Shown: positions 2,912 through 13,614 of the stretch, one piece after another | Layout: the number at the start of each line of letters is the position of its first letter | How positions within the stretch are numbered: position 1 is the stretch's first letter | Source: Rhodospirillaceae bacterium | Lineage (GTDB): Bacteria > Pseudomonadota > Alphaproteobacteria > GCA-2731375 | Length of the DNA: 64,000 nt | Assembly (NCBI GenBank): GCA_018660265.1 | Contig: JABJKS010000085.1 | Span: 1-64,000 of the forward strand | Reading direction: 5' to 3' | Made by a program: the position numbers and the translations under genes | Notes under the pieces: model-generated | Database searches by the model: none | Told to the model about the DNA's origin: nothing | What the model saw: the letters and a program-made list of their open reading frames with translations, nothing else

Positions 2912-4180
2912 ATGACCAGGGACAAGGCCCATACGATCCTTATTTACGACCCGGGCCATTTTCACGCCGCCCTGCTATTCGCCCAGCGCAACAGCCGGGT
3001 CGCACGGTGCATCCATCTCTATGCCCCACCGGGACCGGAGGTCGAGAAATTCATTGCGCTGATTGACGGCTTCAACAGCCGGGCGGAGGCACCGACGAAT
3101 TGGCAGCTTGAATGCCACATAGGTGCCGATAGCCTGGATGCCATGATGGCCGAGCGTCAAGGTGAAATTGTCGTCCTGGCGGGGCGCAATGGCCCGCGCC
3201 TGGCCTTGATGCATCGCCTGCATGATGCGGGCTTTCAGGTACTGGCGGATAAGCCCTGGCTGACCAACAGTGACGCCCTGCCCCATTTAAATGCCATTAC
3301 CGAGGCCGCACCGCTGGCTGTTGACATCATGACCGGGCGTCACGATGCCTTTGCCGCATTGCGCAACCGGATCATTCGAACCCCATCTGTATTTGGCACC
3401 TTAGGTGAAGACCGCAGCCAGCCGGCGCTTGAATTCACCTCGCGCCATCATTTCCTGAAATTGGTCGACGGCCGGCCTTTGCAACGACCACCCTGGTTTT
3501 ACGATTCATCCATGCAAGGCGACGGCCTGGTGGATATCCATTTCCACTATGTGGATCAGGTGCAGTGGATCATTGCACCACTGGTTGATGATAATGCGGA
3601 ATTGTTGACTGCTGGGCGCTGGCGCATTCCCGTCCCCCTGGACCTGTTTCGCGAGAGCACGGGCGAAACCGCCTTCCCATCCTATCTTGCCCAGCAGGTC
3701 AACGACGACGTGTTGCAGCTTGCCTGCAATGGCCGGATTGACTACCGAATGGCCGGTGTATGGGTGCGCCAGATTGCCGAATGGGGTTTGTGGGAGGCTC
3801 CAGGTGGCGGCGATCTGCATGGCTTTACAGCGCGGGGCGGCAATGGCCTTCTGAGGGTTAATGTTGATCCCGACACCGGCTTCCAGCGGCAAATGCGCCT
3901 CTCGCTGGCCAACAGCGACGCGCTTAAGCCAGCCCTGGAACAATGGCGAGAAGAGTTTCCCGGCCTTGAGGCTGAAGCATCGATGGACGGCTATTTGATG
4001 CACCTGCCGATCCAGTCCCATATCAAGCACGAATTTCAGTTCCCCTTGATGCTGGCGCAGTTTCTGGACTTGGTAGACAATGCCGCCCTGGGTGCCTGGC
4101 CCGCGGATTTGGCGGCCCGTATCCGCACCCGCTATACCTTACTGGCCCAGGCCTGGGCGCAAGCGACTGATAGACCTTGA
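2912..4180 (+). CDS. Gfo/Idh/MocA-like oxidoreductase with family-specific C-terminal domain
   Basis: 422 aa. The N-terminal half has a Rossmann-like pattern that begins ILIYDPGHFHAAL instead of the usual GxGxxG loop. This opening marks the putative-oxidoreductase subgroup of Gfo/Idh/MocA proteins. A DKPW segment at about residue 115 occupies the place of the EKP motif of classical members. The large C-terminal part carries several Trp-rich stretches. It sits 9 bases after the nitroreductase and 12 bases before the LLM gene. The substrate is unknown. Whether it binds a nicotinamide cofactor is uncertain given the altered glycine loop. Confidence 0.72.
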   Translation: MTRDKAHTILIYDPGHFHAALLFAQRNSRVARCIHLYAPPGPEVEKFIALIDGFNSRAEAPTNWQLECHIGADSLDAMMAERQGEIVVLAGRNGPRLALMHRLHDAGFQVLADKPWLTNSDALPHLNAITEAAPLAVDIMTGRHDAFAALRNRIIRTPSVFGTLGEDRSQPALEFTSRHHFLKLVDGRPLQRPPWFYDSSMQGDGLVDIHFHYVDQVQWIIAPLVDDNAELLTAGRWRIPVPLDLFRESTGETAFPSYLAQQVNDDVLQLACNGRIDYRMAGVWVRQIAEWGLWEAPGGGDLHGFTARGGNGLLRVNVDPDTGFQRQMRLSLANSDALKPALEQWREEFPGLEAEASMDGYLMHLPIQSHIKHEFQFPLMLAQFLDLVDNAALGAWPADLAARIRTRYTLLAQAWAQATDRP

Positions 4181-4192
4181 GGAGACGACGTT

Positions 4193-5116
4193 ATGACCGC
4201 AAACAACATCCGCTTTGGCACCGCCCTACGATCCCCCTATAACGTGGCGCAATTATCCCGGCAGATAGAAGACTTGGGCTACGATGTTCTGGGCTGTGGT
4301 GAACATGTCAGTTTCTATGGTGATACGGCAAACGGCTTTGTCTCACTCTCCGTCGCCGCCGGCGCCACCCAGCATATTCAATTGATGAGCACGATTACCT
4401 TGGTGCCCCTGTACCCGGCGGCCCTGTTGGCCAAAATGGGTGCCGCACTTGATGTCGCCTCTGGCGGGCGCTATTCCCTGGGCGTTGGCGTGGGCGGTGA
4501 ATTCGCCAACGAGTTCGCGGCCTGTGGCGTTCCAATAAATGAACGCGGTGCCCGCACCGATGATGCTTTGGAAGTGATTACCCGCACCTGGACGGCAACG
4601 GATGTTACCTATGATGGCCGTTTCACCAAGCTGGAGAACTTCTCGTTAAAGCCCCTGCCAATCCAAAAGCCGCGCCCACCGATCTGGGTTTCCGGACGGT
4701 CGGATGCGGCTATGCGCCGGGCCGCGAAATACGCCGATGGCTGGCTACCTTATATGTACACACCGGAACAATTGGCGGACAGCATCACCAAGATCCGCGC
4801 CTATGGCGAAGACCTGGGGCGGGATATGTCCGACTTCACATTCGGGATGTATGTTTTCACAGCCATCAACGAAGACAATGACCTGGGCGTGAAGTATGCC
4901 GCCGATCGCCTCAGCGTTCAGTATTCCCAGGATTTCAGCCAGTTGGTACACAAATTTGCCCTGGCCGGCGATCCTGACCATTGCCAGGCCCGCCTGCAGG
5001 AATATGTCGACGCCGGGGCCAGCCTGGTATTTGTCTCAAGCGCCTGTCCCGATGATTATATCGATAGGAATTTGCAGATGATCTCCTCCGACCTGATCCC
5101 AAATTTCAGAGCTTGA
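4193..5116 (+). CDS. LLM-class flavin-dependent oxidoreductase (F420 or FMN type)
   Basis: 307 aa, luciferase-like TIM-barrel fold. Family landmarks include FGTALRSPYN at the N-terminus, the GGRYSLGVGVGGEFANEF segment and PPIWVSGRSDAAMRRAAKYADGWLPYM, which is typical of the F420-dependent TIGR03619-like branch. Whether this organism uses F420 or FMN cannot be told from the sequence. The start is supported by GAGGAG seven bases upstream. It is last in the 1194-5116 same-strand set and converges on another LLM gene 36 bases away. Confidence 0.85.
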   Translation: MTANNIRFGTALRSPYNVAQLSRQIEDLGYDVLGCGEHVSFYGDTANGFVSLSVAAGATQHIQLMSTITLVPLYPAALLAKMGAALDVASGGRYSLGVGVGGEFANEFAACGVPINERGARTDDALEVITRTWTATDVTYDGRFTKLENFSLKPLPIQKPRPPIWVSGRSDAAMRRAAKYADGWLPYMYTPEQLADSITKIRAYGEDLGRDMSDFTFGMYVFTAINEDNDLGVKYAADRLSVQYSQDFSQLVHKFALAGDPDHCQARLQEYVDAGASLVFVSSACPDDYIDRNLQMISSDLIPNFRA

Positions 5117-5152
5117 GGCGCATCCTCGACGCCCAAGCTATTGCCGCGCCAA

Positions 5153-6412
5153 TCAGTCTGCGGCACCATCGGCAACCTTGGCGGCCTCTCGTTGCGCAGC
5201 CTCCTTGGCGGCCATGTGGGCTTTCAGCTCATCCGGACTTAAGCGCACGATGTCTTCGTTCTGATGGCTGAAGATATCGTAGGGTTGTGTATCCAGATCA
5301 TCCAACTTGACGGTACCGCCCATCACCTGCTCCTTCCAGGCCTGATGTTCGGGTTCCCGGGCGTGGAATTCCGGCATCACCTCATCGGCGAACAACTGCA
5401 GGCTGTCGCAAATATCCTGATGCGACGTTTTGCCGGCCTGGTTCAATAGGATCACCTGATCCACATGGGCCGCCTCATACTGGCGCAGTTTGTCCCGAAT
5501 GGTGGCGGGAGAGCCGATTAAGCCGGCCTTCAAGGCGTCCTGGGCTTTTTCCGATTTGCGCCAATCCTGATACAGGTTCCACAAATCCGACTTACCCGGG
5601 GCATCGATGCCTGCCCGGCCGTAATGGGACAGGGCAAAGATAAAGAAAGTCCAGCCCGCGGCCTTTTCAATGGCCTCCTCGTCGGTGTCCGCGCACATGA
5701 ACCCGGACACCATGGCAACGTTGGGATTGACCGGATACTCGGTGATCAATTGCCGATTATTCAGCAGATTATTGTAATAGTGATTAACCCATGCCGTGGC
5801 CGCATCAGGCGAAACAAAGGTAAAGCCCAAGGCACCCATGCCCCACTGCCCGGCCAGGGTTATGGTCTGGATGTTGGAACAGGCAACCCATAGGGGCGGG
5901 TGCGGCTTTTGAAACGGCTTTGGCAACACGCTGCGGGCGGGAAAGTCGTGGAATTCGCCATGGAATTCCCAATCCTCCTTGGTGAACATGGGGATGATGG
6001 CCTGCACGGCCTCCAACCAGCGATCCCGCTTGCTGCGCACCTGGGTGCCAAAGGGATGCAGTTCCGCCGGGCCGGCACCTTCACCCATACCGAATTCAAC
6101 CCGCCCACCGGACAGCAAATCCAGGGTCGAGACCTTTTCGGCCACGCGATGGGGTTGATTGGTGGTCAATTGGATGATGCCGTATCCAAGGCGAATATTT
6201 TCCGTCCGTTGCGAGGCCGCACCCAGAAATGTCTCGGGTGAGGAGGCATGGGAATATTCTTCCAGGAAATGATGCTCCACCATCCAGGCGTAGTCATAAC
6301 CAAGTTTGTCCGCCAATTCGATCTGGGTCAGGGAGTTCTGCAGCAAATTATATTCGCTGTCGTCTTTCCAAGGCCGGGGTAATTGGTGCTCGTAAAAGAT
6401 ACCAAACTTCAT
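5153..6412 (-). CDS. LLM-class flavin-dependent monooxygenase
   Basis: 419 aa, a long luciferase-like enzyme. The N-terminus MKFGIFYEHQLPRPW, the WMVEHHF motif and GGRVEFGMGEGAGPAEL are typical of the bacterial luciferase alpha-like branch that uses FMNH2 and oxygen. The C-terminal 60 residues are an alanine- and glutamate-rich tail beyond the barrel. A GAGGAG ribosome site precedes the ATG. With the epimerase and SDR genes upstream it forms a - strand run of three. It is only distantly similar to the LLM protein at 4193-5116, so this is not a recent duplication. Confidence 0.87.
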   Translation of the reverse strand: MKFGIFYEHQLPRPWKDDSEYNLLQNSLTQIELADKLGYDYAWMVEHHFLEEYSHASSPETFLGAASQRTENIRLGYGIIQLTTNQPHRVAEKVSTLDLLSGGRVEFGMGEGAGPAELHPFGTQVRSKRDRWLEAVQAIIPMFTKEDWEFHGEFHDFPARSVLPKPFQKPHPPLWVACSNIQTITLAGQWGMGALGFTFVSPDAATAWVNHYYNNLLNNRQLITEYPVNPNVAMVSGFMCADTDEEAIEKAAGWTFFIFALSHYGRAGIDAPGKSDLWNLYQDWRKSEKAQDALKAGLIGSPATIRDKLRQYEAAHVDQVILLNQAGKTSHQDICDSLQLFADEVMPEFHAREPEHQAWKEQVMGGTVKLDDLDTQPYDIFSHQNEDIVRLSPDELKAHMAAKEAAQREAAKVADGAAD

Positions 6413-6433: not shown

Positions 6434-7429
6434 TTATTTCTTCCAGAATGCCCCATGTTGGGCCATCCAATCCAGAAAATCCACGAATGCGGCTTCCGGG
6501 TCATTGGGCAGGCTATACCCGATATCCGCCGCCAAACGTGCACCCGACAGCGACCGGCGATCATAGGCACCGTGTAAATTAATATTCGCGGCCTCTCCGT
6601 CCCCGGTCAGCCTATATTGGAACGCTGAATATTGCTTCGACAATGCAGCGCACCAGTCCATTACACCACAAGGTGTGGCAGAGGCGATATGATATAGATC
6701 ATGGCCCGGATCAGGGGCAGCCATCAAGGCCAACAGCGCCGTGGCGACGTCCCGCGAATAAACCCAGTCCTGGACATCATGCCGGGGCAATACCGCCAGA
6801 CCATCCGCCATCGCCACTAAGGCCGCCTGCATCAGGGGGCTAAGGGTATCGCGGGCACCGCTGTCGATTTCCCAGGGACCATAGACCGCCGCCAGACGGA
6901 CCGAGCGGACATCGATCACCAACAATTCCGCCAGACGGCGGCTTACCGCCTCTGTCGCAAGCTTGGATATGGCATACAGGCTTTCCGGATCCGACGGCGT
7001 TGCGGCTTCATCAATGGCACCGTCGCCTTCCAGACGGTGACGACCATAGGCGGAGCCTGAACCGATGTTGATAATACGGTTTACACCGCCCGCATCCGAG
7101 GCGGCTTTGATGACGTTGACCAGGCCCAGCAGATTGACCTGCAATATCTGGGCCGGGTCCTCCCGCTCCCGCGCCGGGCCGGAGGTCATGGCGGCGCCGT
7201 AATAGACCCCGTCAATGTCCCGACCGGCGAAGGCGGCGGCGACGGAAGCAGGCTCCCGCACATCACCTGCAATAATCTCGAAGCTGCCCGGCAAGTCTTC
7301 AAAGGCCGCCTGCGCGACAGGGTTCAGGGGATTGGCGTCGAACAACACTGCCCGGTCGCCGCGCCGCAAAAGCGCCTCGGCTATATTCAGTCCGACAAAT
7401 CCGCAACCGCCAACGATCAAATGGGCCAT
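6434..7429 (-). CDS. NAD(P)-dependent epimerase/dehydratase (extended SDR)
   Basis: 331 aa. The N-terminal nucleotide-binding motif GGCGFVG follows the extended-SDR pattern GxxGxxG. The catalytic pair YAISK (YxxxK) occurs near residue 150 after SGSAYG. The ribosome site is GGGGGA before the ATG. It lies 12 bases downstream of the SDR gene and 21 bases upstream of the LLM monooxygenase, so the three are probably one transcript. The substrate may be a nucleotide sugar or a catabolic hydroxy-acid. The context of monooxygenase plus SDR favours catabolism, but this is inference. Confidence 0.85.
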   Translation of the reverse strand: MAHLIVGGCGFVGLNIAEALLRRGDRAVLFDANPLNPVAQAAFEDLPGSFEIIAGDVREPASVAAAFAGRDIDGVYYGAAMTSGPAREREDPAQILQVNLLGLVNVIKAASDAGGVNRIINIGSGSAYGRHRLEGDGAIDEAATPSDPESLYAISKLATEAVSRRLAELLVIDVRSVRLAAVYGPWEIDSGARDTLSPLMQAALVAMADGLAVLPRHDVQDWVYSRDVATALLALMAAPDPGHDLYHIASATPCGVMDWCAALSKQYSAFQYRLTGDGEAANINLHGAYDRRSLSGARLAADIGYSLPNDPEAAFVDFLDWMAQHGAFWKK

Positions 7430-7441
7430 GCAACGATCCCC

Positions 7442-8215
7442 CTACACGACCGCGTTGCCACCGTCGACATTCAACACCTGTCCGGTCAGGAATGCGGCAG
7501 CCTGGCTGGCCAGAAAGACGGCGGCACCCGCTATTTCATCAGGCTCTCCAATGCGGCGCAGGGGGATCAGGTTCTCCACCCGGGCCAAGCGGGCCGGGTT
7601 GGTCCATAGGGTTTTGGCAAAATCCGTCTTGATCAATCCCGGCGCAATGGCGTTGACGCGTATGCCCTTGGGACCGTATTCCACGGCCAGATTGCGGGCG
7701 ATCTGATGCTCGGCCACTTTCGAAATGGAATATCCCGATAATTCGACCGAACCCTTCAGCCCGGAGTTGGAGGCAATGATGATGATCGAACCGCCCGCCG
7801 CCGCCGTCATGCCGGGCAAGACCATATGGCATAATTTAAAGACGCTTTTAACATTGACCTCCCAAATCTTGTCAAACGCACTTTCAGGCATTTCGGCCGA
7901 GGGGCCATAGTAGGGGTTGGCGGCCGCGTTGGGGACCAGGGTCGTAATTTTGCCCCATTTATCCAGGGTCTGATCAACCAGTCGGCGCAAATCCTCCTCC
8001 ACCCCGACGTGGGCGGGAATGGATATTGCCTCACCACCGTTGGCGGCATAATCGCGGTTGATTTCTTCCATCACTGCGGCGCAGGCATCGCCCTTGCGCG
8101 ACGAGATCACCACCTTGGCACCATGTTGGCACATGCGCGCCGCAATTGCCTTGCCAATACCTTTGGTCGAACCAGTCACAATCGCAACCCGGTCGCTCAA
8201 ATCAAATAATTCCAC
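7442..8215 (-). CDS. SDR family oxidoreductase
   Basis: 257 aa, classical short-chain dehydrogenase. Motifs are TGSTKGIG (cofactor loop), the NAAANPYYG region replacing NNAG, IIIIASNSG with the catalytic serine, YSISK (YxxxK), and a C-terminal GQVLNVDGGNAV. I prefer the GTG at 8215, because a GGAGA ribosome site lies about nine bases upstream and the product then starts MELFDLSDRVAIVTG. An upstream GTG at 8230 would add five residues. First gene of the - strand set 8215-5153. Substrate unknown. Confidence 0.88.
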   Translation of the reverse strand: MELFDLSDRVAIVTGSTKGIGKAIAARMCQHGAKVVISSRKGDACAAVMEEINRDYAANGGEAISIPAHVGVEEDLRRLVDQTLDKWGKITTLVPNAAANPYYGPSAEMPESAFDKIWEVNVKSVFKLCHMVLPGMTAAAGGSIIIIASNSGLKGSVELSGYSISKVAEHQIARNLAVEYGPKGIRVNAIAPGLIKTDFAKTLWTNPARLARVENLIPLRRIGEPDEIAGAAVFLASQAAAFLTGQVLNVDGGNAVV

Positions 8216-8311
8216 GCTGATTGTCTCCACCCGTCTGCTGCATCTGCCAGCAACTATATAGCAACGGCTCTTGGACGGGGAGATTTCAAACCTGTAGGAT
8301 TATCTTCAAAG

Positions 8312-9298
8312 CTATCCCAGGACGGCGCGGATGAGGTCGCCTTGCACTTTGCCAATTTTGGCAACTTCGCCGCTGATTGCATCATCATCATCGCCCTGCT
8401 CATGCTCCAGCTTAGAGGCGACGCGGAGGGCCAGGGCGCTTTGTTCCAGCAACTCAAAACTCTTTTCCGAAGGTGGCTTGCCGAACATGCCGCCCAATAC
8501 ACCGGTGAGAGAGTTGCACAAGGCGCGCAAGTTTTCACCATCCAGCGGCAACAATGTTTTGTGATAGATGATCACTGACTTGCGCAATGTCACCAATTCC
8601 CGCTCGTATCGATCTGGCAATGCAGGGTCGGAATAAGATTCCTTTAAACGATTAGCCAAATACCAGATCCGCCGGGCCAAGTTTCGGATTTTCAATCGGC
8701 GCAGTTGGGCAAACGTATCTTCAATACGTTCAACATTTGGTGCCGCGCTCCGATCTGCCAAGGCGTGGGCCCGCAAAGCATTGGGAACGACAATCGATGT
8801 CGGATCATTCCGCAACAAGTTGGTCGCCCGGCGGTCAGGGCCGAAATAATCTTCGGTTACGACAAAGGGTTTTCTGTCATGAACCAGATTATTGATACGC
8901 TGTCCCATCTGCGCGGTCGAAAATGGGTATAGCAAAACATCATCGGCACCGGATTCAAGGACGGGGCGAAGGGACTGCAGCTTTGCATCCCACGTGGTCA
9001 ACAGTATCGGCACGAATGGGTCAATGCCAAATCGACGCCCACGCAAATCCTGGATCAGGCGCAGCACGCCACAATCGACCGCATCCAAATTCAACACCGC
9101 CACATCAACCCGTTGTCCGCATAAAGCCAGACGGACCGATTCCAAATCCTGAAACTCCTGAAAAGTCTTGAAACCCAAGACATTCAAGACTGACCGGGTT
9201 TGCTTGCGTACCACCCGCGTTCGGTCAAACAATAGGATGTTCGCATCAATATAATGTGACTTTTGCATACTTATTGCGACTCTACTAATTTTCTTCAC
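8312..9298 (-). CDS. pseudo-receiver domain protein, paralogue 1
   Basis: 328 aa from a GTG start. Residues 20-140 align with the CheY-like receiver fold, but the active site is altered. Only one acid (Asp25) remains of the N-terminal pair, the phospho-acceptor position is Asn70 (VLNLDAVDCG), and the conserved lysine before Pro-Phe is Tyr124 (LLYPF). A DYFGPDRR motif follows at residues 150-157, then a helical C-terminal half of unknown function. The gene 9517-10503 is a paralogue of identical length carrying the same substitutions. Phosphotransfer is therefore unlikely and a conformational or scaffolding role is possible. I do not recognise a named function. Confidence 0.75.
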   Translation of the reverse strand: MKKISRVAISMQKSHYIDANILLFDRTRVVRKQTRSVLNVLGFKTFQEFQDLESVRLALCGQRVDVAVLNLDAVDCGVLRLIQDLRGRRFGIDPFVPILLTTWDAKLQSLRPVLESGADDVLLYPFSTAQMGQRINNLVHDRKPFVVTEDYFGPDRRATNLLRNDPTSIVVPNALRAHALADRSAAPNVERIEDTFAQLRRLKIRNLARRIWYLANRLKESYSDPALPDRYERELVTLRKSVIIYHKTLLPLDGENLRALCNSLTGVLGGMFGKPPSEKSFELLEQSALALRVASKLEHEQGDDDDAISGEVAKIGKVQGDLIRAVLG

Positions 9299-9363
9299 GC
9301 CCTGAGCTCACGTTAGCTCAAGCGATTTTTTTACTAGATTGTGGCGATTTTCAGGGCATATTC

Positions 9364-9465
9364 TTAATGTTTAACTAATCGTCGCCGCAAAAATTCCGCA
9401 TAGGACATTATGGGACGATACTGTTCTAATTTGGTTGAGACGGCAGATGAAATGTCGCTGGCCAT
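9364..9465 (-). CDS. possible 33-aa small protein between the two pseudo-receivers
   Basis: ORF of 33 codons in the 218-base gap between the paralogues, same strand as both. A perfect GGAGG at 9471-9475 lies five bases from the ATG at 9465, one of the clearest ribosome sites in the window. A second ATG directly upstream (9468) is too close to that site. The product begins MASDISSAVSTKLEQYRP and ends LRRRLVKH, so it is basic at its C-terminus with no membrane segment. It could be a real small protein co-expressed with the receivers or a regulatory leader peptide. Nothing known was recognised. Confidence 0.5.
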   Translation of the reverse strand: MASDISSAVSTKLEQYRPIMSYAEFLRRRLVKH

Positions 9466-9516
9466 CATATCCTCCACTTTTTCGCGGGCGCGGCGGTCAA
9501 AATCAAACGGTCCGAA

Positions 9517-10503
9517 TTACTTCAGAACCAAGCGGTCCAGTTTCTTGCGAACTCTGCCAAAATTGGCGACCTCTTCCATGATAGCATCATCGGCTTCGCC
9601 CCCTTCATGGTCCAGCCTGGAGGCCAGGCGCAGGGCCAGGGCACTTTTCTCCAACAATCTCAGATCTCTCTTAGACGGCGCAAGACCGAACATGCCATCC
9701 AACAGATTGGAGAGTGTCTCGAACAAACTTCGCACTATTTCTTCGTCTTCCGCGATCAAGGTTTTTCGGTAGATAGCGAGAGAATTCCGTAAAGTTATCA
9801 ACTCTTGTTGGTAGAGTTTCGGTTGTTTCTTATCCGTGAATGTTTCCTTTAAGCAATTGGCCAGATACCAAATGCGACGTGATGAATTACGTAATTTCAT
9901 CCGACGTAATTTCACAAGTGTTTCGTCGACGGACTGCGTGTTTGGGGCTTCTTCGCGTAGGCCAAAGGCCTGGGCCCGAAAAGCATTGGGTACTTTGATC
10001 GAAGTCGGATCTTTCTTAATCAGGGCGGATGACCGTCGATCGGGGCCAAAATAATCCTCCGTCACGACAAAGGGTTTTCGCTCCTGCGCCAGAAGGTCAA
10101 TGCGTTGGGCTAATTGTGCGGTGGAAAAAGGATACAGCAGCACATCGTCGGCACCGGAATCCAGAAACGATTGAACCGATTCCAATTTTGCAAGCCAACT
10201 TGTCAACAAGATTGGCATAAACGGATCCAAGCCAACTTTACGTCCGCGAATATCCTTGACCATGCCTAAGATGCCGCAGTCCAACGTGTCCAAATTCAAG
10301 ACCGCGATATCAACACGTTGCGAGCTTAAGGCGTGACCGACGTCCTCTAAATTATCAAATTCCAGGAACTTCCGGAAACCAAACCCATTTAGAACAGACC
10401 GGGTCTGTTTACGCACATTCCGGGTGCGATCAAATAATAGGATGCTTGTATCGGCATAGTTTGGGCTTTGCATGATTTGATTAATTCTACCAACGTTAAT
10501 CAC
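9517..10503 (-). CDS. pseudo-receiver domain protein, paralogue 2
   Basis: 328 aa if started at the GTG at 10503. An upstream ATG at 10557 would add 18 residues, but the GTG aligns with the start of the neighbouring paralogue and gives the same length. The two share FDRTR, VRKQTRSVLN, AVLNLD, SGADDVLLYPFSTAQ, KPFVVTEDYFGPDRR and a helical C-terminal region. As in the paralogue, the phospho-acceptor position is Asn and the conserved Lys is Tyr. The gene lies upstream of paralogue 1 with a small ORF between them, consistent with tandem duplication followed by divergence. It is divergent from the DUF455 gene. Confidence 0.75.
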   Translation of the reverse strand: MINVGRINQIMQSPNYADTSILLFDRTRNVRKQTRSVLNGFGFRKFLEFDNLEDVGHALSSQRVDIAVLNLDTLDCGILGMVKDIRGRKVGLDPFMPILLTSWLAKLESVQSFLDSGADDVLLYPFSTAQLAQRIDLLAQERKPFVVTEDYFGPDRRSSALIKKDPTSIKVPNAFRAQAFGLREEAPNTQSVDETLVKLRRMKLRNSSRRIWYLANCLKETFTDKKQPKLYQQELITLRNSLAIYRKTLIAEDEEIVRSLFETLSNLLDGMFGLAPSKRDLRLLEKSALALRLASRLDHEGGEADDAIMEEVANFGRVRKKLDRLVLK

Positions 10504-10669
10504 GCCCTCAGTCCCGGCTGGCTTAAACACCATTTTGCGCGGGCTTGAGGAAATCATCGCCCGTAAATATTAATGAATTGCTAAGCGCAATAGCAAAAAT
10601 TCCAAAATTTGATGTAAATGGAGCGATATTGGCGCAGAACTAATGAGATGGGATACGAAGGCAAGACTT

Positions 10670-11524
10670 ATGACGCTTGATGGACGAACGCTTTGCGAAG
10701 AAGCCTGCATAATTTTGCGAACGGCTGACCCGACGGCCAAAATTGCCGTCGGTGCAGCTTTGGCGAAAAGCTGGCGTGACGGCGAGATTTCAGTGCTCCA
10801 TGGCGGGCATTCAGCTCTACCGCCGCCCCCAGCGCCCCCAGCGCCATCGCAGAGACCGCAGAGACCACCGTGGCGACCGGCCCGGCCCGACCGCCCCGAA
10901 CTACGCCGTCCAGGCGATATGCCCAGACGAACAACATCCGGCCTGCGCGGTCGCGTTGCCCTGCTCCACGCCATCGCCCACATAGAATTAAACGCCGTCG
11001 ATTTGGCCTGGGATCTGATCGCCCGCTTTGCAAACGCTGACCTGCCCCGCGCCTTCTACGACGATTGGATTGGGGTCGCGGCGGATGAAGGCCGGCATTT
11101 TAATTTATTGAGCGCCCGGCTCAATGAATTGGGCGCATGCTATGGAGATCTACCGGCCCATGATGGTCTATGGCAGGCGGCCATGGACACTGCCGATGAT
11201 CTGACGGCCCGCCTGGCAATCGTGCCCATGGTCTTGGAGGCGCGCGGCCTGGATGTCACGCCGGCGATGGCGCATAAACTGCGAAACGGGGGCGACAGCC
11301 CATCAGCTGACATTCTGCAATTGATCCTGGAAGACGAAATAAGCCATGTCGCCGCCGGCCAGCGCTGGTTCGAATGGTGCTGTAGCCAACAAAATCTATC
11401 ACCGATAGAATATTGGCATACACTGGTCGGGAAATATTTTAAAGGTGCCCTAAAACCGCCCTTTAACCACGCGGCCCGAAAACAAGCCGGCATGTCAACG
11501 AAATATTATGAACCACATGCTTAG
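10670..11524 (+). CDS. DUF455 family ferritin-like protein
   Basis: 284 aa. The diiron-type four-helix pattern is visible: IAHIELNAVDLAW, then ADEGRHF, VLEARGLD and EDEISHVAAGQRWF, each supplying the Glu or Glu-x-x-His ligands expected of the MiaE/DUF455 group. A proline- and arginine-rich linker occupies residues about 50-85 before the helical core. I chose the ATG at 10670, which has GAAGG about eight bases upstream. An in-frame ATG at 10643 would add nine residues. The family's substrate is not established, and oxidation or hydroxylation chemistry is inferred from the metal ligands only. Confidence 0.85.
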   Translation: MTLDGRTLCEEACIILRTADPTAKIAVGAALAKSWRDGEISVLHGGHSALPPPPAPPAPSQRPQRPPWRPARPDRPELRRPGDMPRRTTSGLRGRVALLHAIAHIELNAVDLAWDLIARFANADLPRAFYDDWIGVAADEGRHFNLLSARLNELGACYGDLPAHDGLWQAAMDTADDLTARLAIVPMVLEARGLDVTPAMAHKLRNGGDSPSADILQLILEDEISHVAAGQRWFEWCCSQQNLSPIEYWHTLVGKYFKGALKPPFNHAARKQAGMSTKYYEPHA

Positions 11525-11672: not shown

Positions 11673-13139
11673 ATGAGTGAGGGCAAAGCAGTCGCGGCAA
11701 AGCGACTGTTGGATCGGGTTTTCCCGGAACGGCAAATCCTGCTGCGTAGTCGTGGCGAGGTCAGCTTCGTTACGCTTGGACAAGGCAGCCAAATCGGCCT
11801 TTGCCTGGTGGGCTTTTCCCTGCTTGGCTGGCTGGCATATGCCAGTACGGGGGTCTATTTTCAATCCGATATCATCGCCGGCAAGGACGCTCATATTGCC
11901 AGGATGGTCTCTGCCCATGACCGCCTGAATGCAGATATGCGCGCTGTGGAAAGCCGCTATCAGCAAATCACCGCGAATTTAGAAAGTAACCAAAAAGTCC
12001 TGGGAAATGTTCTGCAACAACGTTCTGACCTGGGACGGGTGCGCGCCGAATTATTGCGCGAATTGAAGCAGGCCCGGAAGCAACGCGATGTCGCAATCAG
12101 CCGCAGCGAAAAATTGAATTCGCGCTTGGCGCAGCTGGAAAACAGCCTGCGTCAAACCTTAAGCGACTCGACCCACCTGCAGACAAATTTAAGCCACGTT
12201 ATGGATCGCCTCGCCACCTCGGAAAACGTTCGCAGTAAGGCGCAACAGGAACGCAGCGCCTTAAGCGCAAACCTGAATGTCATGCGGGAAGATTTATCGG
12301 GATTAAAAGACGCCCGGAAAAATCTACAGGTGGACCTGGAAAGCAGTGAGGAGATGGTTGCCCGCCTGACAGATCAGCGCGACCATGCTTTTTCGACAAA
12401 TCTGAAGTTAAACAAACAGATCGGCAACTTGGAAGGTCGCCTGAAACAGCTGCAAGTGGCCCAAAGCGCCCTGGTCGGAAATATCCAGGACCGCACCAAT
12501 GCCAATATTACCGAGCTGGAAACGGTCATTGAAATTACCGGATTGAACGTAAACAGTTTGTTGGGTCGGGTGGATCACCAAGAAATCGGAACTGGCGGGC
12601 CGCTTATCTCCTCGTCGAATTCAACTGAAGAGAAGGCGCTTTTGCAGCTTAAGACGGGCGACGGTTCGTTGGGTTTGCTGGAAAACCGCTTGGTTCATTG
12701 GACTGCCCTTAACGCGGTGTTGGAGCGGTTGCCCATTGCACCGCCAGTAGACAATTTTTCAATCTCTTCCTCGTTCGGAAAACGCCAGGACCCATTTACC
12801 AAACGGCGGGCGTTTCACAGCGGCATGGACCTGGCAGGCGCGAAACGAACCAGCATCTATGCAACATCACCGGGCGTCGTAACTTTTGCTGGCTGGAAAG
12901 GCCCGTACGGGCGGTTGGTGGAGATCGACCACGGCCTGGGTTTGCGCACCCGATATGGTCATTTGCGGAAAACCCTGGTCAAAAAGGGTCAAAAGATAGA
13001 TTTTCGTCACAAGATCGGTTTGATGGGCAGTAGCGGCCGCAGTACCGGCACCCATGTTCATTACGAAGTCGTGTTTGATGGCAAACCGCTTAACCCAAGG
13101 AAATTCCTGAAAGCGGGGAAATATGTTTTCAAAGGCTGA
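11673..13139 (+). CDS. membrane-anchored M23 (LytM) metallopeptidase with coiled coil
   Basis: 488 aa. There is one transmembrane segment near residues 40-62, then a long periplasmic coiled coil (about 65-280) rich in Leu, Gln, Arg and Glu, then a C-terminal LytM domain from about residue 365. The domain keeps its zinc ligands: FHSGMD, YGHL and HVHYE near residue 461. It should be an active DD-endopeptidase cutting peptidoglycan cross-links. The last 17 bases overlap the bactofilin gene, so translation is probably coupled. M23-bactofilin pairs are known to shape the cell wall, with the bactofilin placing the peptidase. Confidence 0.9.
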   Translation: MSEGKAVAAKRLLDRVFPERQILLRSRGEVSFVTLGQGSQIGLCLVGFSLLGWLAYASTGVYFQSDIIAGKDAHIARMVSAHDRLNADMRAVESRYQQITANLESNQKVLGNVLQQRSDLGRVRAELLRELKQARKQRDVAISRSEKLNSRLAQLENSLRQTLSDSTHLQTNLSHVMDRLATSENVRSKAQQERSALSANLNVMREDLSGLKDARKNLQVDLESSEEMVARLTDQRDHAFSTNLKLNKQIGNLEGRLKQLQVAQSALVGNIQDRTNANITELETVIEITGLNVNSLLGRVDHQEIGTGGPLISSSNSTEEKALLQLKTGDGSLGLLENRLVHWTALNAVLERLPIAPPVDNFSISSSFGKRQDPFTKRRAFHSGMDLAGAKRTSIYATSPGVVTFAGWKGPYGRLVEIDHGLGLRTRYGHLRKTLVKKGQKIDFRHKIGLMGSSGRSTGTHVHYEVVFDGKPLNPRKFLKAGKYVFKG

Positions 13140-13614
13140 TAAATCCAAGGCCGCCAATACGGTGGCGCGTGCCGCACCATCGTTGATTTCCACGGATCTG
13201 GAAATTGCCGGTAATCTGCAAACCCCTGGTGAAGTTCAGTTGGACGGCACCATTGAAGGGGACATTGTCTGCGGCAAGCTGTTGATTGGCGCAAAGGCCA
13301 TAATCACGGGCCATATTGAGGCGGATGAAGTTATCATCCGGGGTCGGGTCACCGGCCGGGTAAAAGGTAAGAACGTACACCTGGCCAGTACGGCCCGTGT
13401 TGTCGGCGATATCTGGCATGATAGCCTGGCCATTGAAGCCGGTGCCTTCCTGGAAGGCCATTGCAAACGCAATGATGCGGCCGCCGCCATTGAAGCGACC
13501 CCGGCCAAGATGCCAAGCACGACAAACCACAGCGCCGATGTGGTTCCGGCCCGGCAGAACCCTGTACAAGACAGCGCCGGTAACACAGTGGCAAAGACAG
13601 CCGCCCGGAACTGA
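13123..13614 (+). CDS. bactofilin (polymer-forming cytoskeletal protein)
   Basis: 163 aa. The bactofilin (DUF583) beta-helical core spans about residues 20-115, with repeated short beta motifs such as GEVQLDGTIEGDIVCGKLLIG and IRGRVTGRVKG. It is flanked by a basic N-terminus (MFSKADKSKA) and a disordered, Ala- and Asn-rich C-terminal tail, as is usual. It overlaps the M23 peptidase gene by 17 bases. It is predicted to polymerise at the inner membrane without nucleotide and to localise the peptidoglycan hydrolase. Confidence 0.92.
   Translation: MFSKADKSKAANTVARAAPSLISTDLEIAGNLQTPGEVQLDGTIEGDIVCGKLLIGAKAIITGHIEADEVIIRGRVTGRVKGKNVHLASTARVVGDIWHDSLAIEAGAFLEGHCKRNDAAAAIEATPAKMPSTTNHSADVVPARQNPVQDSAGNTVAKTAARN

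Follow-up and report, generated by a model that had tools for sequence, protein, structure and literature searches.

A tandem pair of receiver-like proteins without a phosphorylation site, each ending in a putative degenerate histidine phosphotransfer domain

The window analyzed here, a stretch of 64,000 nucleotides, carries two related genes in tandem on the reverse strand, which we call W1 and W2 (Table 1). The W1 reading frame (8312-9298) encodes 328 amino acids when counted from a GTG, the W2 reading frame (9517-10557) encodes 346 when counted from its first ATG, and the two are 59% identical across 324 residues. A preliminary description of this DNA, made from the sequence alone, reported two paralogs of 328 amino acids; the pair of reading frames is as described, but the length is not, as all homologs align from a later methionine (MQ...) and the likely products are therefore 318 amino acids each. 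Residues are numbered accordingly throughout.

Table 1. Features of the W1/W2 locus, in window positions
Feature	Position	Strand	Basis
Short-chain dehydrogenase, next downstream of W1	7442..8230	-	Pfam; neighbor kept in genus
W1, paralog, 318 aa, from Met of MQKSHY	8312..9268	-	ORF open to 9298; start from homolog alignment
W1 PNxL motif and putative pseudo-HPt bundle, residues 161-287, Ile233 at phospho-His position	8408..8788	-	hhalign; His column
W1 conserved segment DRKPFVVTEDYFGPDRR, residues 131-147	8828..8878	-	Alignment; pairwise identity
W1 receiver-like domain, residues 1-130	8879..9268	-	PF00072, 30.6 bits; site residues as in W2
W2, pseudo-receiver/putative pseudo-HPt protein, 318 aa, from Met of MQSPNY	9517..10473	-	ORF open to 10557; start from homolog alignment
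W2 PNxL-like motif and putative pseudo-HPt four-helix bundle, residues 161-287, Ala233 at phospho-His position	9613..9993	-	hhalign against stand-alone HPt genes; His column; model
W2 conserved segment ERKPFVVTEDYFGPDRR, residues 131-147	10033..10083	-	Most conserved part of W2; pairwise identity
W2 receiver-like domain, residues 1-130	10084..10473	-	PF00072, 31.9 bits; AlphaFold model, CheY fold; site residues
DUF455 gene, divergent from W2	10643..11524	+	Pfam; in several genus members
M23 peptidase and bactofilin genes, divergent side	11673..13614	+	Pfam; M23 neighbor kept in genus

Both proteins begin with a domain that narrowly reaches the Pfam cut-off for Response_reg (PF00072; 30.2 bits), and the AlphaFold model of this part of W2 (pLDDT 86) has the CheY fold, with a Z score of about 16 and an rmsd of about 2. 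The site residues are the same in both proteins: Asp15 (DD1) is present, the second acid is lost to Arg16, Asn60 (codon 10294-10296 in W2) replaces the phospho-acceptor Asp, Thr91 is kept, and Tyr114 replaces the Lys. W1 and W2 thus lack the acceptor Asp, the second acid, and the Lys of a functional receiver; these substitutions, the single remaining N-terminal acid, and a DYFGPDRR motif shared by both proteins had all been correctly read in the preliminary description. W1 and W2 are pseudo-receivers (aspartate-less receivers), that is, receivers by profile without a phospho-Asp, and cannot be phosphorylated at the canonical Asp.

Within the genus, the locus is flanked by the short-chain dehydrogenase gene and an epimerase gene on one side and by the M23 peptidase gene and prfB on the other. 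A whole-genome search with HATPase_c found 65 places at E <= 0.001, none of which is on the window's contig (C13; 145,277 bases), which bears out the earlier remark that no histidine kinase lies nearby. The Pfam scan found no signaling genes among the window proteins tested, and the neighbors covered are metabolic and cell-wall genes; partners of W1 and W2, if any, would therefore be encoded elsewhere. Among more distant relatives, a Sneathiella family gene has a PilZ-like gene, read from sequence, directly upstream (L084 5584-5982), and a Terasakiella family gene (L099) lies between a REC-PAS-GGDEF-EAL-like gene upstream (3855-5909) and a STAS-like gene downstream (7080-7382). We considered assigning a function from genomic neighbors and rejected it: these are metabolic in the window's genus and PilZ-, GGDEF-EAL-, STAS-, or HPt-like beside some distant relatives, and so are too inconstant.

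The C-terminal domain had been left unassigned in the preliminary description, which called for a profile search. Pfam and NCBIfam scans gave nothing usable, DUF3336 being rejected at an E value of 0.025, below the cut-off, and the Pfam model for histidine phosphotransfer (HPt) domains (PF01627) had no match in W1 or W2 at an E value of 1. The assignment instead came from hhalign, in which 82 C-terminal domains matched 34 HPts over 144 columns with a probability of 95.9, an E value of 5.7e-9, and a score of 55.6, whereas the scores of the controls were at most 19.7 for 40 unrelated families, 15.5 for a reversed profile, and at most 14.3 for column shuffles. Where stand-alone HPts carry a PNxLxxK-like motif, W1 and W2 carry PNA[FL]RA; without the first 20 residues, which hold this PNxL segment, the bundle alone scores about 31.5, so part of the HPt signal comes from the segment. 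The match was weaker for the window clade by itself, with a probability of 82 for 30 sequences and of 39 for the 11 sequences of the W clade, and the link to HPts therefore runs through the outside relatives, which are tied to the window's family at 99.3. In the column that holds the phospho-His of the HxxKG motif, His is found in 32 of 35 HPts, in none of 52 outside members, and in 1 of 30 members of the window's bacterial family.

Structural comparison was less specific. In the fold search with the C-terminal model, the HPt domain of CheA (1tqg; Z 12.2, rmsd 2.4, 103 residues) ranked with the best natural matches, but designed bundles, FliS, and sensor domains fitted equally well, so that the result agrees with an HPt assignment without proving it; Foldseek gave no match at E <= 0.001 with the C-terminal model alone, and with the full model its matches were mostly receivers. 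The bundle might accordingly be an HPt look-alike, a widespread four-helix arrangement that arose separately, as the near-equal fit of the non-HPt structures and the HPt probabilities of 39 to 82 for window sequences alone would allow. We think this unlikely, given that the profile match is full length with the PNxL segment aligned, that the domain follows GPDRR in the same order as the HPts do, and that intact fusions in that order exist. The C-terminal domain of W1 and W2 is, on these profile comparisons, a putative degenerate HPt domain without the phospho-His, and since it is invisible to Pfam's Hpt model, such domains may be undercounted.

In the outside relatives (e.g., L079, L115, and L118), an Asp stands one residue after the His column in 36/52 sequences and an Arg four residues further in 44/52. 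These two residues apparently form a motif of their own where HPts have their His motif.

We aligned the receiver site in 83 two-domain homologs, of which 30 are from the window's bacterial family and 53 are outside relatives from other bacterial families. The first N-terminal acid is Asp or Glu in 79/83, and the second is replaced by a nonacidic residue in 82/83. Within the window's bacterial family, Ala occupies the acceptor position in 20 sequences, Thr in 3, Gly in 3, Asn in 2, Ser in 1, and Glu in 1, and the Lys position is mostly His (11), Trp (10), or Tyr (6), with Ala, Asn, and Ser also seen. The preliminary description had named restoration of Asp and Lys in close relatives as evidence against its reading; neither residue occurs in any of the 30 own-family members, and both are kept only in other families (Asp in 41/53, Lys in 32/53, with Arg at the Lys position in a further 13). 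What is conserved in the window's bacterial family is thus the absence of the site and not Asn or Tyr as such.

This variability also bears on the idea that the protein is switched by a small molecule bound in the emptied pocket or by another kind of modification there, as proposed for aspartate-less receivers (PMC4395418). In its favor, the family alignment shows little or no change at Asp15, Trp93, and Pro115, in contrast to the variable Asn60 and Tyr114. Against it, these pocket positions accept many different residues among relatives (A, G, T, S, E, N at one and H, W, Y, A, N, S at the other), as a conserved binding site would not, and we regard ligand or modification gating as quite improbable.

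A quick tree with a midpoint root and 23 open forks placed the window's bacterial family in a single clade (SH-aLRT 100) with three paralogue groups, namely, the W group and the two members of a second type of pair. W1 and W2 are sister copies (SH-aLRT 96), with branch lengths of 0.15 and 0.52, respectively, and share their Asn for that reason; the common Asn is best read as one event, inherited through a recent duplication. The second tandem pair in the window's genome lies near recA on contig C115 (G000 C115:124322-126496; L009 9290-11488), is 39% and 32% identical to W2, and carries Ala or Ser in place of the acceptor and Trp or His in place of the Lys. A pair of this type is also present in another genus (G011), which indicates that it is old. 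Genes related to W1 and W2 were found throughout the genus, and the nearest named records are metagenome-assembled Alphaproteobacteria, several of them marine, judged by isolate names. Tandem pairs were also observed in other bacterial families of the class (L058, L079, L085, L089, and L151). In the tree, the two members of each of the pairs L079, L085, L089, and L023/L058 are sisters, so tandem duplication arose repeatedly.

Loss of all catalytic residues, together with the long W2 branch, could suggest that W1 and W2 are decaying duplicates of a phosphorelay protein. However, the reading frames of the family are open throughout the genus, synteny is conserved, and pairwise dN/dS within the window clade is well under 1 in both domains (0.06-0.24 for the whole protein and, for the receiver part, about 0.03-0.15 in pairs with a finite dS; W1 against W2 is near saturation, with a dS of about 2), which makes a relaxed remnant highly improbable. 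Taken together, the low dN/dS, the genus-wide retention, and the conserved neighbors indicate that W1 and W2 are not decaying, and they argue for purifying selection acting on both domains of what are probably functional proteins. The earlier proposal of a selected, phosphorylation-independent function is therefore supported in part, resting now on dN/dS, synteny, and the missing acceptor Asp, but its own argument, that two copies had retained the same altered site, does not hold, since the copies are recent sisters and the residues vary across the family.

Conservation is highest in the RKPFVVTEDYFGPDRR segment and in helix D. In the window's bacterial family, mean pairwise identity is 0.77 for residues 131-147 against 0.45 for the receiver, and no helix is better conserved than helix D (0.67). 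Among the receiver helices, helix 1 shows the strongest conservation in groups W and II, though not in group III; in ordinary receivers, it is the docking helix for kinases and HPts. The conservation of helix D would also fit an output surface, as expected if W1 and W2 were constitutively active pseudo-response regulators, with the helical domain as true output (DNA, RNA, or enzyme), control by protein amount or by a partner on the receiver-like domain, and no phosphorelay link. Such constitutive action has been proposed for bacterial pseudo-receivers generally (PMC12632262), and no relay genes lie near W1 and W2. Nevertheless, the helical domain scores against HPt profiles well beyond the controls, it has the same PNxL motif as the HPt genes found after CheY-GPDRR genes, and no known output domain was matched in Pfam or NCBIfam, so we hold constitutive output to be rather unlikely.

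The window's genome contains three intact pairs (C11, C109, and C119) in which a CheY-like receiver with a GPDRR-like end is followed by a small HPt gene with a PNxLxxK-like start. Among the loci examined, there were 40 HPt reading frames of this type, 25 directly after a receiver gene and 5 fused to one, a scripted count that leaves out L168, though we read it as a fusion. The layout of the W1/W2 family is likely that of such a phosphorelay gene pair in one chain, with receiver and GPDRR first, followed by PNxLxxK and the HPt. Asp, Lys, and His are all retained in the fusions L032, L168, L171, L172, and L179, and these intact fusions and the W1/W2 family may have fused independently. One further receiver-HPt fusion (L180 925-1989) keeps Asp and Lys and has Leu at the phospho-His position. 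Intact HPts co-occur with the W1/W2 family (about 14/18 against 36/97 genomes; p 0.002, a value that ignores kinship and assumes that the two samples overlap). A W1/W2-family gene and a gene with an HPt domain point away from each other in L083, L088, and L093. Genome G003 has an intact receiver-GPDRR/HPt pair (L044 15314-16353) between the M23 peptidase gene and prfB, with the pseudo gene a few genes away.

The W1/W2 family has lost the relay chemistry, the HPt His being missing throughout with one exception, the second Mg-binding acid in nearly all members, and Asp and Lys in the window's bacterial family. The fold, the GPDRR segment, and, in two of the three paralogue groups, the first receiver helix persist under purifying selection, which leaves shape and surface. 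As W1 and W2 have no acceptor Asp, Lys, second acid, or HPt His, canonical phosphotransfer through them is excluded by established chemistry. We propose, in the simplest reading, which we would as readily believe as doubt, that they are unphosphorylatable look-alikes that bind intact relay components as competitors or scaffolds. The receiver-like face would bind an HPt or a kinase and the HPt-like bundle would bind receivers, so that the dose of W1 and W2 would set the output of intact relays, and the two tandem copies would differ in their partners or in expression. More tentatively, and with doubt outweighing confidence, the family might be a class-wide bacterial set of catalytically empty receiver-HPt proteins, diversified by repeated tandem duplication, that antagonize or scaffold a cell's own intact CheY-GPDRR/HPt relays and would thereby be the bacterial counterpart to the plant protein AHP6.

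AHP6 is an HPt relative without the His. It acts as a pseudo-HPt inhibitor of cytokinin signaling (PMC3572949); it is a plant protein without a receiver domain, and its likeness to W1 and W2 would be limited to the proposed way of working. VieB of Vibrio cholerae, a receiver protein with an unassigned C-terminal half, binds the hybrid kinase VieS and blocks phosphotransfer (PMC4352251); it keeps its Asp and sits in the vieSAB operon with the kinase, and so offers a precedent for the style of working but not for membership. By its receiver part, the pair belongs to a published class: like RitR, FrzS, ChxR, HP1043, and the PleD pseudo-receiver, W1 and W2 have a receiver fold without the phospho-Asp, and they agree with the commonest published pattern of aspartate-less receivers, in which the first N-terminal acid is kept and the second lost (PMC12632262, PMC4395418). 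They differ at the Lys position, where a basic residue is kept in 70% of published aspartate-less receivers and lost here, and in the partner domain, which is not a DNA-binding or enzyme domain but a putative degenerate HPt. The pairing with a pseudo-HPt was not found in the open-licence literature searched, in which papers on PDRR response regulators, degenerate Hpt, and REC-Hpt proteins gave no account of this family. Pseudo-receivers are common, and their switching was called a mystery in a 2025 review, in which HPt domains without the His are rare (90/10,312) (PMC12632262). W1 and W2 would join a dead receiver and a dead HPt in one protein, while the genome also encodes both parts in intact form, and their relatives in graded states of loss would form a natural series for asking what receivers and HPts do without phosphate. 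Compared with the CheY-GPDRR and HPt gene pairs on C11, C109, and C119, they have the same order, the same GPDRR-like receiver end, and the same PNxLxxK-like HPt start, but those are separate genes with the HPt His, whereas W1 and W2 are each one chain without Asp, Lys, or His; the five fusions named above have this two-domain layout in common with them and keep all three phosphotransfer residues.
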